From contig NZ_HF952018.1 of NCBI RefSeq assembly GCF_000430995.1, forward strand, positions 1,533,523-1,574,891: a stretch of 41,369 nucleotides of DNA, written 5' to 3'. Position numbers and translations under genes: made by a program. Positions within the stretch are counted from its first letter, which is position 1; the number at the start of each line of letters is the position of its first letter. This document shows, piece after piece, positions 23,838 to 31,497 of the stretch. Origin of the DNA: Thermobrachium celere DSM 8682. GTDB lineage: Bacteria; Bacillota; Clostridia; Clostridiales; Caloramatoraceae. The notes below the pieces were generated by a model. That model ran no database searches. It saw only the letters and a list, made by a program, of their open reading frames with translations, and was not told the origin of the DNA.

Positions 23838-24326
23838 TCACTTAGTCATTAATATCCTTACAATTTCTTCTTCAATCAACTTTATGTACTTACCTTCTCT
23901 GTACTTGTTTATTCTATCCTTCATTTCTTCGTAGGACAAATTTATAAGCAAATTTTTAAATTCTTGTGGAAATTCAACTATAATACCTCTTAAAGTATCA
24001 TCTTTATTTATAAATATAACTGTAGGTATTCTTGCTTCACCTGTTAATTGCTTTAAAAGTTCCTCATTTCCCTGTCTTTTAAGAATTTTTACATCTATAC
24101 CCATTTGATCATTTAAAAAACTTATAAATGGGAATAATATTAAACAATCAGGACAGAAGGATTCTGAAAACATCAGTATTCTAAAATCCAAATTTTCCTT
24201 CTTTAGATTATTTAGAAGGCTTGATCTATAAATTTCTTTAGCAAGTTCTCTGTGTTTATTTAATTTTTCTTCATCATAAGTTTTTAAATATTCTTCTACT
24301 GTTAATGCATTTATTAATTCTAACAT
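23838..24326 (-). CDS. Thioredoxin-like protein with CPDC motif
   Basis: 162 residues. The thioredoxin fold covers about residues 45-115: FRILMFSESFCPDCLILFPF gives a CxxC (CPDC) active site in place of CGPC, and ARIPTVIFIN holds the cis-proline. N- and C-terminal helical extensions lie on both sides. This matches the thioredoxin_9-type family common in Firmicutes, predicted thiol-disulfide oxidoreductases of the cytoplasm. No signal peptide. ATG follows AGGTGGTG. Monocistronic by context. Confidence 0.85.
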   Translation of the reverse strand: MLELINALTVEEYLKTYDEEKLNKHRELAKEIYRSSLLNNLKKENLDFRILMFSESFCPDCLILFPFISFLNDQMGIDVKILKRQGNEELLKQLTGEARIPTVIFINKDDTLRGIIVEFPQEFKNLLINLSYEEMKDRINKYREGKYIKLIEEEIVRILMTK

Positions 24327-24406: not shown

Positions 24407-25225
24407 ATGTACTACGAATTTAAATCAAGTTTTATAAGCAACGAAATAAATTTATATAAGATAGCCAGTCACTTTGGAATAAATAAAAAATTTAAATGGG
24501 AAGAACCTCTCATTTTAGATGATAGAAATCTTAAAGGTATAATTCCGCATCCTAATAATAAATACGTATATATATTCCACTTTGGATGTATAGTCTCTGC
24601 CAATCTCGCCTTCCACGAACTTAGAGATGTAATAGAATATATTAAAAAAGTTGACACAACCTTGAAAAACAACACGCCATTTAATTATATTGAAGATTTC
24701 AGAATGGTTGTAGATAATCGTATTAAGGAAATGGAACTTAGTTATGATTCTATAAAAGTAAATAGTTTAAAACCATACTATATGGAGATTGTTGCAACTG
24801 TACTTGCAAAATCAGTTGCTCTTAAAAAAATTGAAGTTGATATAGACAATTTGCTTGATGAAATTGAAAACATAATAGTCTACTTAGACAACGGAAAACT
24901 ACACCTTAGTGATAATCATCTTGCTAAAATGTCTGCAAAGGTACTTAGATTTAAATATAATACGATATCATATATAATGCTTTTAGATAAACCTGATATT
25001 GCTTGGAAATTAGAAGATGCTGAGGAATTTTTCTTAACACTTTCTGATTTTTATGAACTAAAGGATAGATATGAAAAAATACGACATAAAACTGAAGTTC
25101 TGCTTGATATTACTGAAGTATTCACTAGCCTAACCCATGCCAAAAGAGGAACCAAACTTGAATGGATGGTTATATTACTATTTATAATTGAAATAATTAT
25201 GTCAATACTTGAAAAAATATTTTAG
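24407..25225 (+). CDS. RMD1/YagE (DUF155) family membrane protein
   Basis: 272 residues. KYVYIFHFGCIVSANLAFHELRDVI is the DUF155 signature strand, and a helical middle region (about 120-240) precedes TKLEWMVILLFIIEIIMSIL, the C-terminal membrane anchor typical of this family (yeast Rmd1, mitochondrial Rmnd1). The eukaryotic proteins affect microtubules or mitochondrial translation; the bacterial role is unknown. AAAGGGGACA precedes the ATG. Its TAG stop overlaps the stem of the next terminator. Confidence 0.85.
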   Translation: MYYEFKSSFISNEINLYKIASHFGINKKFKWEEPLILDDRNLKGIIPHPNNKYVYIFHFGCIVSANLAFHELRDVIEYIKKVDTTLKNNTPFNYIEDFRMVVDNRIKEMELSYDSIKVNSLKPYYMEIVATVLAKSVALKKIEVDIDNLLDEIENIIVYLDNGKLHLSDNHLAKMSAKVLRFKYNTISYIMLLDKPDIAWKLEDAEEFFLTLSDFYELKDRYEKIRHKTEVLLDITEVFTSLTHAKRGTKLEWMVILLFIIEIIMSILEKIF

Positions 25226-25243
25226 GCACCATTATAGGTGCCT
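25224..25243. terminator. Short hairpin overlapping the DUF155 stop codon
   Basis: AGGCACC, loop ATTATA, GGTGCCT, five bases before the stop of the convergent oxidoreductase gene. It probably serves both genes; T runs are weak on both sides. Confidence 0.6.
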
Positions 25244-25248
25244 ATAAT

Positions 25249-27702
25249 TTATATGAACAGATTTACATTTGATTGTTCTGCTTCTCCAAGGTATGCTGCA
25301 ACTCCACCAATTTCTACACCGTCAATTAATTCTTCCTTCTTTATTCCCATAACATCCATTGACATTGAGCAAGCAACAAGCTTTACACCATTTGCCTTTG
25401 CTTGTTCTATTAGCTCTTCAAGAGATGCTATATTCTTCTTCTTCATTATTCCACGAATCATCTTTGCACCAATTCCACCCATATTCATCTTAGATAGTGC
25501 AAGCTTTTTGCTTCCTCTTGGCATCATCTTAGCAAACATCTTTTCAATGAATGTTTTATTAACCTTAACTGCTGTATCCTTTCTTAGTATATTTAATCCC
25601 CAGAATGTAAAGAACATTGTAACAGGTCTTCCCATTGCTGCTGCACCATTTGCAATTATAAAGGATGCAATAGCCTTATCTAAGTCACCACTGAATACAA
25701 CTATTGTCTTGCCCTGTGGCAGTTCTACATTTACTGGCTGGGCATTTGTCTTTTCTTTTCTTCCCTTCATAACATAAGCAACGTAATCGCAACAAGTCTT
25801 TTCAACTCCAATTAGGGTATTACCTGTTCTTTCACACCATGCCTTAATATCCTTTGTAAATCCTGCATCTGTTACATGTACTTCTAGTACATCTCCCTCA
25901 TTTATCTTTTCTATTTCAGTCTTTACCCTCATTATTGGCCCTGGGCATTGAAGACCACAAGCATCTATCTTTATTGTATTTCCACTTGGCTTAACTTCCT
26001 TTTTTTCCTCCATTGGTTCAAATCTTGTCATCTCATCATTTAGCTTTAGTCCTTCTCCATACTTCATTTGATAAGCTAAAACTAAATCATATCCTCCGCT
26101 TAAGTTATATACATCATATCCATTTTGAACTAATATTCTATATGCTATATATCCTCTTAAACCAATCTTACAGTAAACAATTATCTTTTTGTCCTTTGGA
26201 ATTTCATTCATTCTCTTTCTTAACTCATCAACTGGAATGTTTACTGCTCCTTCTAAGTGTCCACCTTCAAATTCTACATCTGTTCTAACGTCTACTATAA
26301 AGTATTCATCTGGATTAATATTCTTTAATTCATCAGCATGTATAATCTTCATATCTCCCTTTAGTATGTTTGCTGCTGTAAAACCAGCCATATTTACTGG
26401 GTCCTTAGCTGATGAATATGGTGGTGCATATGCAAGTTCTAATTCTTCTAGATCATATACTGTCATTCCAGCTCTTATTGCTGTTGCTATAACATCTATT
26501 CTCTTATCAACACCATCTCTACCTACTATTTGTGCACCAAGTATCTTTCCATCCTCTGGTGAGAAAAGTAGCTTTATTGTCATTGGGAATGCTCCTGGAT
26601 AATATCCAGCATGTGAGCCTGAATGTGTATAGGACTTAATATATGGTATTCCTTGTCTCTTTAGTATCTTTTCATTATTTCCTGTTGATGCTGCAGTTAA
26701 ATCAAACACCTTTATGATTGAAGTTCCTTGTGTTCCCTTATATACACTTTCTCTACCACAAATATTATCTGCAGCTATTCTTCCTTGCTTATTTGCTGGA
26801 CCTGCAAGTGGAATTAGTGTATTTGTACCATTAATATAGTCTTCAACTTCAATAGCGTCTCCAACTGCATAAATATATGGGTCTGATGTTCTCATGTGAG
26901 CATCAACTTTAATTCCACCACGTTCACCAATTTCAAGTCCTGCTTCCTTTGCAAGCTTAACCTCAGGTCTTACCCCTATTGCCATTATAACCATATCCGC
27001 ATTAAGCTTCTTACCACTCTTTAAAGTCATCTCTAGTCCGTTATTCTTCTCAAATCTTTCAACAGCATCACCAACTATTAGGTTAACACCGTTGTCTATC
27101 ATATGCTTTTCTATCATTTTTGCCATTTCAAAGTCAAGTGGTCCCATAACTTGATCTGCAGCTTCAACTAGAGTAACATCTACTCCAATATGCTTTAGGT
27201 TTTCTGCCATTTCTATACCAACATATCCGCCACCTATTACAACTGCCTTATTTGGCTTATTCTTTGTAACGTGTTCTTTGATTCTATCAACATCTTCCAT
27301 GTTTCTTAAAGTATAAATCCCATCTAAGTTTACTCCTTCAATTGGCGGAACAAATGGGGCTGCACCTGGTGATAAAATTAAATAATCATATTTTTCTCTA
27401 TAAGTTTTACCATTTGATACAACTTCAACTTCCTTTGTATCTCTGAATATCTTTGTAACTTCACTGTGAGTTCTTACATCGATGTTAAATCTTTGTTCCA
27501 TTCCTTCTTCTGTTTGAACAAGAAGGTTTTGTCTCTCCTTTATAGTCTCACCAATGTAGTATGGAAGACCACAGTTTGCAAAGGAGATATATCCTCCTCT
27601 TTCAAACATTATAATTTCTATATTCTCGTCAAGTCTTCTAAGTCTTGCTGCAGCGCTAGCGCCACCTGCAACTCCACCTACTATTAAAACTCTCTTTGAC
27701 AT
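25249..27702 (-). CDS. CoA-disulfide reductase/rhodanese/TusA/DsrE four-domain fusion
   Basis: 817 residues. 1-445: FAD/NAD-dependent CoA-disulfide or persulfide reductase, with VLIVGGVAGGASAAARLRR (FAD), single catalytic C44 in SFANCGLPYY, VIGGGYVGIEMAENL (NADH) and YAVGDAIEVEDY. About 455-545: rhodanese with active-site loop YCKIGLRG. About 570-650: TusA-like domain with IDACGLQCPGP (CPxP). About 665-817: DsrE/DsrF-like domain (VVFSGDLDKAIASFIIANG, late cysteine in LVACSMSMD). All four parts move sulfane sulfur: persulfide reduction, sulfur transfer and relay. AGGAGAGG precedes the ATG. The promoter carries a dyad like those of persulfide sensors of the CstR/CsoR family, so polysulfide or elemental-sulfur handling is the likely role. 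Confidence 0.93.
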   Translation of the reverse strand: MSKRVLIVGGVAGGASAAARLRRLDENIEIIMFERGGYISFANCGLPYYIGETIKERQNLLVQTEEGMEQRFNIDVRTHSEVTKIFRDTKEVEVVSNGKTYREKYDYLILSPGAAPFVPPIEGVNLDGIYTLRNMEDVDRIKEHVTKNKPNKAVVIGGGYVGIEMAENLKHIGVDVTLVEAADQVMGPLDFEMAKMIEKHMIDNGVNLIVGDAVERFEKNNGLEMTLKSGKKLNADMVIMAIGVRPEVKLAKEAGLEIGERGGIKVDAHMRTSDPYIYAVGDAIEVEDYINGTNTLIPLAGPANKQGRIAADNICGRESVYKGTQGTSIIKVFDLTAASTGNNEKILKRQGIPYIKSYTHSGSHAGYYPGAFPMTIKLLFSPEDGKILGAQIVGRDGVDKRIDVIATAIRAGMTVYDLEELELAYAPPYSSAKDPVNMAGFTAANILKGDMKIIHADELKNINPDEYFIVDVRTDVEFEGGHLEGAVNIPVDELRKRMNEIPKDKKIIVYCKIGLRGYIAYRILVQNGYDVYNLSGGYDLVLAYQMKYGEGLKLNDEMTRFEPMEEKKEVKPSGNTIKIDACGLQCPGPIMRVKTEIEKINEGDVLEVHVTDAGFTKDIKAWCERTGNTLIGVEKTCCDYVAYVMKGRKEKTNAQPVNVELPQGKTIVVFSGDLDKAIASFIIANGAAAMGRPVTMFFTFWGLNILRKDTAVKVNKTFIEKMFAKMMPRGSKKLALSKMNMGGIGAKMIRGIMKKKNIASLEELIEQAKANGVKLVACSMSMDVMGIKKEELIDGVEIGGVAAYLGEAEQSNVNLFI

Positions 27703-27770
27703 ATTATCCTCTCCTTAACATTGTTATAAACTTCACTAATTTAATCATTATATTGCTATACTGTAATTTT

Positions 27771-27799
27771 ATAATATTACAAGTTTCGTCAATTGTCAA
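27771..27799 (-). promoter_or_regulatory. Sigma-A promoter of the sulfur-transfer oxidoreductase
   Basis: On the minus strand TTGACA (27794-27799), exactly 17 bases, TATTAT (27771-27776). The -35 is perfect. The start codon is about 70 bases downstream. Confidence 0.78.
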
Positions 27800-27801
27800 T
27801 A

Positions 27802-27816
27802 TACCCTGTAAGGGTA
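27802..27816. promoter_or_regulatory. CstR/CsoR-like operator dyad
   Basis: TACCCTGTAAGGGTA, a perfect 6-3-6 inverted repeat, two bases upstream of the -35 box. CsoR/CstR proteins recognise TACCC...GGGTA dyads, and CstR controls rhodanese/TusA/persulfide genes in Staphylococcus. The match in both sequence form and gene type is the basis; no such regulator gene is in this window. Confidence 0.55.
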
Positions 27817-27881: not shown

Positions 27882-28031
27882 ATGACCAGAATTGCAGTTG
27901 ACAGCAGTCTAAAAAGTATAAAGGAAGCTTTGGAACAAAATGGTATAAATTATACTGTTGTTCCTCAGAAGAATATAGGTCAGATAAAACCCTCTGATTT
28001 TGACATATTGATTGTATCGGAAGAAGATTAG
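27882..28031 (+). CDS. Short UPF0180 (YkuS-like) protein
   Basis: 49 residues. TRIAVDSSLKSIKEALEQNG followed by INYTVVP and DFDILIVSEED matches the N-terminal pattern of UPF0180/YkuS proteins (usually about 80 residues), so this one is short but has a clean stop and its own terminator. ATG 27882 is chosen for the AAGGAGGTG at good spacing; the longer open frame upstream lies in promoter DNA. Function unknown. It is divergent from the CoA-disulfide reductase gene. Confidence 0.75.
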   Translation: MTRIAVDSSLKSIKEALEQNGINYTVVPQKNIGQIKPSDFDILIVSEED

Positions 28032-31017: not shown

Positions 31018-31398
31018 TTATGATACAAGATAAAAATTTACATCCTTCATGCTTTCCTTTAAAAGATCCACTATGCTTTCCTGTTGACATCCCTTTGGAG
31101 GCTCTCCTAAAACTATATGTCCCACACCATTTTCAGTAGCAAACTTTGTAATAGCAGCACATACATCATTTGAACGCAAAACTGTCATATCTGCGCCTAC
31201 TGACTTTGAAATACCATATAAATATTCTATTGCATCTGCTTGTTTGCTATTACCTAAAAAGTTTTCATCTTCACGTGCAACATGAACAACATGTAATTCA
31301 CCATCTATCTTATCCTTTAATTCTTTACCCTTTTTTATCAATCTTTCACATGTTTTTTGTTGTGTAACACATACCATGATATTTTTATCTTTTTTCAC
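31018..31398 (-). CDS. Universal stress protein family (UspA/KdpD-like)
   Basis: 126 residues, one Usp domain: NIMVCVTQQKTCERLIKKGK at the N-terminus as in KdpD-type Usp domains, ELHVVHVAREDENF, and AITKFATENGVGHIVLGEPP, a G-rich loop near the nucleotide site. It probably binds ATP or acts in stress or potassium signalling; no sensor kinase is adjacent. The start is GTG 31398 behind GGGGAA; the ATG one base upstream is out of frame. Confidence 0.85.
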   Translation of the reverse strand: MKKDKNIMVCVTQQKTCERLIKKGKELKDKIDGELHVVHVAREDENFLGNSKQADAIEYLYGISKSVGADMTVLRSNDVCAAITKFATENGVGHIVLGEPPKGCQQESIVDLLKESMKDVNFYLVS

Positions 31399-31497
31399 AT
31401 TAATTCCCCTTTCTGGGTATATTATTTCTACTATTATTATACTTCATTTATTGCACTAACAATACAATTTTATCAAATTTTAATTAATTATTCAAAA

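Follow-up and report, generated by a model that had tools for sequence, protein, structure and literature searches.

A predicted CsoR-family operator at the promoter of a four-domain sulfur-relay enzyme in Thermobrachium celere and the likely thiol-redox regulon of an orphan two-cysteine regulator

CstR and YrkD, regulators of the CsoR family in Bacilli, are described as responding to sulfane sulfur or related species, and CstR of Staphylococcus aureus is thought to control one operon directly (PMC5480029, PMC9918477). For the CoA-persulfide reductase of Enterococcus faecalis, it has been argued that persulfide is reduced with the help of the rhodanese cysteine and of CoA as a swinging arm (PMC9405070). 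One survey that covers Clostridiales treats CsoR as a copper regulator (PMC4938975). Here we analyse a window of 41,369 bp (the whole stretch under study) from the genome of the thermophilic anaerobe Thermobrachium celere DSM 8682 (2.64 Mb, 55 contigs), in which an 817-residue enzyme with CoA-disulfide-reductase-like, rhodanese, TusA and DsrE2-type domains is preceded by a 15-bp dyad. The four-domain architecture itself is already known from Bacteroides fragilis BF638R_0572; what is new here is a proposed regulon and a distinct clade of C-Y-C regulators. The comparisons below support well the prediction that the dyad is a CsoR-family operator, and we consider it likely that it is the operator of an orphan protein, hereafter L001, controlling a scattered set of thiol and sulfur-redox genes. 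The operator and promoter are as follows.

27802..27816, no strand: 15-bp dyad TACCC-N5-GGGTA, predicted operator of a CsoR-family repressor
27771..27799, minus strand: enzyme promoter, with -35 box TTGACA at 27794-27799, -10 box TATTAT at 27771-27776 and a 17-bp spacer

The dyad, TACCCTGTAAGGGTA, sits 2 bp upstream of TTGACA-17-TATTAT, a promoter with 11 of 12 matches in its two boxes. The original prediction had placed the dyad correctly and had noted a perfect -35 box beside it; only its statement that they abut has to be given up, as 2 bp lie between them. Being upstream of the -35 box and outside the enzyme message, the dyad should act as DNA. All 17 Caloramatoraceae genomes of our sample (G000 etc.) were searched, and the enzyme was found in 16 of them. 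The pattern TACC-N7-GGTATATTGAC occurred in 15 of the 17, covering 6 of 8 genera, while its reversed control occurred in none, and in each of those 15 genomes a site stands at the enzyme promoter, immediately 5' of TATTGAC. When 3 to 8 bases were allowed between TACC and GGTA, only a spacing of 7 was found. The arms of the dyad, which were part of the search pattern, are constant and the central bases vary, though the inner C/G positions have diverged in the more distant species. Within the window alone the signal is less striking than across genomes, with four matches at up to three mismatches against 0.92 expected, and four or more in 2 of 100 shuffles. G007 has one extra site, and G000 has a second copy on a duplicate contig. 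Two small contigs, L003 (G000:C14, with runs of N) and L007 (G000:C51), repeat parts of the main contigs around both dyads and look like assembly duplicates.

The original prediction would have been abandoned if the genome lacked a CsoR-family gene; two were found. One, L002, encodes a protein with the copper-type C-H-C ligands and is followed by an ORF of 811 residues whose start resembles, by eye, a copper ATPase. The other, L001 (L001:1486-1749; PF02583, 96 bits against a cut-off of 22.8), carries two aligned cysteines with a tyrosine at the position of the copper-ligand histidine (C-Y-C), and shares with CstR the trait of two cysteines and no histidine ligand. The copper ligands C-H-C are absent from this type throughout Caloramatoraceae, where all 17 rows read C-Y-C, and the two cysteines with the replacing tyrosine recur in 104 of 113 other rows. 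The closest solved relatives of L001 are Geobacillus CsoR, InrS and the protein labelled csoR in 7mq1. Its gene lies between a ThiF-type and a glyA-like gene (by eye), not beside sulfur-relay genes and far from the enzyme. The L001 type was found in 17/17 Caloramatoraceae genomes; across the order Clostridiales, 129 of 194 genomes and 41 of 49 genera have it (E <= 1e-18). In a tree of 165 rows, all 126 rows of the L001 type fall on one side of a branch (100/83), and 25 rows of Bacilli CstR stand apart from them (100/99); the alignment has only 85 columns, and the deeper order is unsure. Among the papers listed in literature searches, none concerned a C-Y-C CsoR clade in Clostridia or a thioredoxin regulon under a CsoR-family protein there; a 2021 paper on CsoR-family persulfide sensors may describe the clade. 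In four genomes of one genus (g25), a single ORF of 195 to 205 residues holds a tandem pair of L001-type CsoR domains (L265, L266, G057 L328 and G169 L325).

Further evidence comes from the promoters of the regulator genes themselves. Outside Caloramatoraceae there are 112 genomes with an L001-type gene, and the 200 bp upstream of 109 of these genes were scanned (G111, G139 and G174 were left out). TACCC-N5-GGGTA with at most one mismatch was present upstream of 28 of the 109 (2 of them strict), and the N4 form upstream of 4, all strict. Other spacings at the same tolerance were nearly empty (N3 1, N6 0, N7 2, N8 0). The reversed pattern had 2 matches at N7 and none at N3 to N6 or N8, and thirty dinucleotide-shuffled sets gave a mean of 0.33 N5 sites and a maximum of 2; in the 200 bp downstream of the same genes there were no N5 sites and one N4 site. 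Six loci have a strict N4 or N5 site, and in five of them this site closely follows a TATAAT, as expected for self-repression. The 28 N5 cases are confined to 9 genera (10 with the N4 cases) and therefore represent fewer than 28 independent events. Among loci with a Bacilli CsoR-family gene, strict N4 sites were found in 23/33 (control 0) and N5 in 1/33; N4 was found in 7/47 loci without such a gene. It is the presence of the dyad in the promoters of the C-Y-C type's own genes outside Caloramatoraceae that ties it to this type.

The original prediction had called the operator CstR/CsoR-like. The family assignment is well supported; the CstR part is not. L001 is an orphan encoded at a distance from the enzyme and branches separately from Bacilli CstR, its predicted site is N5 where loci with a Bacilli CsoR-family gene mostly have N4, and several targets instead of one operon are predicted for it. 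Judging from these sequence comparisons, the regulator of the enzyme is probably not CstR itself.

We then looked at which other genes carry the dyad. In the T. celere genome, strict TACCC-N5-GGGTA gives five matches, or three distinct places once two contig duplicates are removed: one at the four-domain enzyme, one at trxA, which has a thioredoxin-reductase-like gene behind it, and one at a gene for a membrane protein that carries a 4Fe-4S motif. The dyad lies 3' of the -10 box at trxA and inside the 17-bp spacer at the 4Fe-4S membrane protein. Of 16 trxA promoters read in Caloramatoraceae, 11 have the strict dyad and four more a relaxed one (G007 by the relaxed pattern; in G005, G006 and G008 a CCC..GGG dyad, shifted, was recognised by eye at the corresponding position), with one promoter lacking it; shuffled promoters gave means of 0 strict and 0.065 relaxed sites, and there was no match to the reversed control. 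In G002 no trxA match reached the threshold.

Allowing one mismatch raises the count in this genome to 30 matches, 25 of which carry exactly one mismatch; the control pattern gives 19. Inspection of 24 of these 25 placed 14 in ORFs, six in promoter regions, three before other ORFs (a small ORF, a lipoprotein-like and a flavodoxin-like one) and one near no clear gene. The six promoter regions belong to a CcdA/DsbD_TM protein, a 66-residue ferredoxin, an FmdB-type zinc ribbon protein, a HesB-like gene, an SBF/ACR3-like permease and the copper csoR; the families of T. celere targets come from searches, except HesB, which was recognised by eye. The remaining site, at 31405-31419 of the window, lies 7 bp before an ORF at 31018-31398 (minus strand) and overlaps its likely ribosome-binding site. 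Strict sites stand at CcdA in G009 and G010, at the ferredoxin in G002, G009, G010 and G011, and at the FmdB-type gene in G010, three of these genes having been recognised by eye from their first codons. Over the 17 Caloramatoraceae genomes, 29 of 47 strict sites precede, by our reading, the enzyme (8, including one contig duplicate), trxA (11), the ferredoxin (4), CcdA (2), the 4Fe-4S membrane protein (2, again including one contig duplicate), an FmdB-type gene (1) or a C_GCAxxG_C_C gene (1), the rest lying within genes or before unrelated ones. Two observations concern in-frame TGA codons at such genes. The HesB-like gene (L235, start 1017, minus strand; dyad at C32 1426736) has one in AGIG-TGA-GGPSYG, a stretch that looks conserved, and possibly encodes a selenoprotein. 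In G007, a glutaredoxin-like ORF (by eye; L203:1545 onward, plus strand) has a TGA at the expected first active-site cysteine (TPT-TGA-PWC), and its upstream region holds an additional copy of the combined operator and -35 pattern.

The enzyme and its surroundings comprise the following features.

25249..27702, minus strand: coding sequence, with its stop codon, of the 817-aa four-domain protein (ORF and Pfam)
26374..27693, minus strand: CoA-disulfide-reductase-like FAD/NAD(P)H domain, residues 4-443 (TIGR03385, Pfam), Cys44 codon at 27571-27573
26086..26331, minus strand: rhodanese domain, residues 458-539 (PF00581, 68.9 bits), Cys511 codon at 26170-26172
25771..25974, minus strand: TusA domain, residues 577-644 (PF01206, 73.9 bits), Cys586 (CPGP) codon at 25945-25947
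25255..25710, minus strand: DsrE2-type domain, residues 665-816 (PF13686, 232 bits; 3pnx), Cys778 codon at 25369-25371
25223..25244, no strand: terminator-like stem-loop directly 3' of the enzyme stop codon, usable from both sides

The predicted fusion of four domains, each with its cysteine, in one chain of 817 residues was confirmed by Pfam, by structure alignments and by 18 homologues. In Pfam the enzyme contains Pyr_redox_2 (4-294), Pyr_redox_dim (330-432), Rhodanese (458-539), TusA (577-644) and DrsE_2 (665-816), each above its own gathering score. The NCBIfam model for CoA-disulfide reductase, TIGR03385, scored 530.5 bits, below its cut-off of 578.8, and two further models of that enzyme also stayed below cut-off. 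Cysteines C44 (SFANCGLPYY), C511 (YCKIGLRGY), C586 (CPGP) and C778 (ACSMS) are invariant among the 18 aligned homologues. Among solved structures, those nearest to residues 2-540 belong to CoADR-RHD, Npsr and CoA-persulfide reductase: these residues align with Bacillus anthracis CoADR-RHD (3icr) at 654 bits, reductase and rhodanese over their full length, residues 3-539 align with Npsr-type structures and residues 4-541 with CoA-persulfide reductase, and C44 and C511 match the corresponding residues of 3icr and 3nta/3ntd. Residues 666-817 match the DsrE structure 3pnx, with C778 aligned to a cysteine. An AlphaFold model (mean pLDDT 75.8, pTM 0.61, two of the four cysteine loops, 41-46 and 583-588, below 50) was not used.

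Among the best 80 of 195 matches, the nearest named records are from Caloramator: C. proteoclasticus, C. sp. mosi_1 and a Caloramator metagenome-assembled genome, each with 96% identity. The same single-chain domain order occurs in Halanaerobium, Clostridium, Bacteroidota and other loci, and in many Bacilli loci the modules are divided among separate genes, frequently accompanied by a CstR-like gene. Eighty loci of the enzyme were scanned for the dyad over 700 bp upstream of the match, with spacings of 4 to 6 and at most one mismatch: N5 sites were found in five Caloramator loci (L008, L009, L010, L012 and L015), N4 sites in many Bacilli, and no dyad in the Halanaerobium, Clostridium and Bacteroidota loci listed. 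No CsoR gene was matched beside the enzyme in Caloramator loci L008-L015. A record of Alkalithermobacter thermoalcaliphilus (L011) has an enzyme 90% identical, with the -35 box kept and the dyad absent, which raises a question of transfer or of record identity. In G010 the enzyme is split between rhodanese and TusA into two adjacent ORFs (L153, L157), and the matches in G004 (L150) and G011 (L146) have an in-frame TAG with an early end and an in-frame TGA, respectively. As for the neighbours, a DUF155 protein (RMND1/Sif2-Sif3/Mrx10 family; 24407-25225, plus strand) adjoins the enzyme, and a Thioredoxin_9 family protein (23838-24326, minus strand) lies two genes away, with none of the four window dyad matches nearby.

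Several observations weigh against a C-Y-C repressor acting at these sites. Of the two genomes without the enzyme-promoter pattern, G016 gave no match to the enzyme itself, but G012 has an enzyme (only 60% identical) that lacks the site; the trxA promoter of G014 is likewise without a dyad. Upstream of enzyme homologues outside Caloramatoraceae there is no N5 dyad at up to one mismatch except one Bacillus near match (L033). None of the 17 Caloramatoraceae L001-type genes has the dyad in its own promoter, so that self-control is seen only outside the family, and among the 113 other rows three lack the first cysteine and one has a cysteine instead of the tyrosine. Over the 17 genomes the 47 strict dyads compare with 36 reversed-control sites; whole-genome counts were therefore rejected as proof, and only placement in promoters before the same genes is counted. 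Finally, the promoter of the copper csoR (L002) holds TACCCCCACAGGGTG, one mismatch from the pattern, and the copper protein could bind similar sites. This last point is the ground for an alternative in which L002, the C-H-C copper sensor, binds the dyad and places enzyme and thioredoxin in a response to copper or metal-thiol stress. We regard it as improbable, since 28 of 109 C-Y-C genes have the dyad in their own promoter and since a Pfam search of G003 (96% complete) and a protein search of G016 (94% complete) found only the L001 type and no copper-type gene, while the trxA dyad is kept in both and the enzyme dyad in G003.

A regulator of another family, for instance an Rrf2-type sensor, might instead recognise the dyad: the ferredoxin and HesB-like candidates would suit an Fe-S regulator, and our searches covered the CsoR family only. 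The occurrence of the dyad in promoters of CsoR-family genes, as N5 with the C-Y-C type and as N4 in the Bacilli loci, makes this decidedly improbable. Equally, the dyad lies between two divergent genes, 67 bp before a small UPF0180-like ORF (27883-28031, plus strand), and could serve that gene and not the enzyme; its place, however, is fixed beside the enzyme -35 box in 15 genomes of 6 genera while other upstream DNA changes, and we give this possibility almost no credence. A different question is what the enzyme is for. Fermentative thermophiles can gain from sulfur reduction, and an NAD(P)H polysulfide reductase has been reported for Thermotoga (PMC9431562), so that the enzyme might mainly be a dissimilatory polysulfide or sulfur reductase disposing of surplus reductant, and not a persulfide detoxifier. 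An operator shared with thioredoxin, CcdA and other redox genes suits thiol repair better, and the B. fragilis homologue was studied in the context of thiol/disulfide balance (PMC6158253); we hold the dissimilatory role to be unlikely.

Returning to the C-Y-C protein as regulator, the two-cysteine repressor may sense sulfur or thiol stress, and a mechanism can be proposed. Reduced L001 repressor on the dyad would block RNA polymerase, beside the -35 box at the enzyme and at the transcription start in trxA; oxidation or persulfidation of its two cysteines would release it from DNA and open the promoter. Precedents for such a switch are CstR and YrkD and, with its scattered sulfur targets, TTHA1953 of Thermus thermophilus, discussed below. 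The regulon would include the enzyme, thioredoxin with the thioredoxin-reductase-like flavoprotein, the CcdA-type membrane protein, the small ferredoxin and others. Within the enzyme, sulfane sulfur would be passed via DsrE2 (C778), TusA (C586) and rhodanese (C511) to CoA, which, as argued for the E. faecalis reductase, would act as a swinging arm with C511, the persulfide being reduced at C44 with FAD and NAD(P)H. TusA and DsrE2 would then be tethered sulfur carriers, and sulfide would be released. We infer binding by L001, its signal, the direction of sulfur flow and sulfide as product, and the same applies to induction of the enzyme by polysulfide and to sulfur transfer between its domains, both suggested by the original prediction.

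Sensing of persulfide or disulfide stress in anaerobic Clostridia-type bacteria seems little described, and the question can now be put to the test with a candidate regulator, its predicted operator and the coordinates of its likely targets. The widespread four-domain enzyme is thereby placed in one regulatory context with thioredoxin. More broadly, though here we are tentative and lean slightly towards doubt, the cysteine-only C-Y-C proteins, found in about two thirds of the sampled Clostridiales genomes, could form a distinct class of CsoR-family sensor that serves these anaerobes as a general thiol/persulfide switch, with thioredoxin, CcdA, ferredoxin, selenoprotein and sulfur-relay genes as its regulon.

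Compared with the systems described so far, B. fragilis BF638R_0572 has the same four domains as the T. celere enzyme, in the same order and in one chain, but it is under the MarR protein BmoR, in whose mutant it is raised 50-fold, and not under a CsoR-family protein (PMC6158253). The CoA-persulfide reductase of E. faecalis (PMC9405070; 8a56) and the CoADR-RHD and Npsr enzymes (3icr, 3nta) share the reductase and rhodanese with matching cysteines and are without the TusA or DsrE extension; the E. faecalis gene is likewise under a two-cysteine CsoR-family repressor, but that repressor is CstR. TTHA1953 of Thermus thermophilus, compared here by its description, is like L001 a two-cysteine CsoR-like protein with distant targets that include a thioredoxin, and differs in its palindrome, TACNNTACNNNNGTANNGTA, in its control of the Sox pathway and in that NaHS gave no release (PMC10318464). 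Finally, the CstR and YrkD proteins of Bacilli (PMC5480029, PMC9918477) resemble L001 as CsoR-family members with two cysteines and no histidine ligand, with sulfur-relay target genes and with TACCC..GGGTA dyads in related loci. Their dyads, however, are N4 and they are described as encoded with their targets, whereas the L001 type has N5 dyads, scattered targets, a separate branch and a tyrosine in place of their asparagine.

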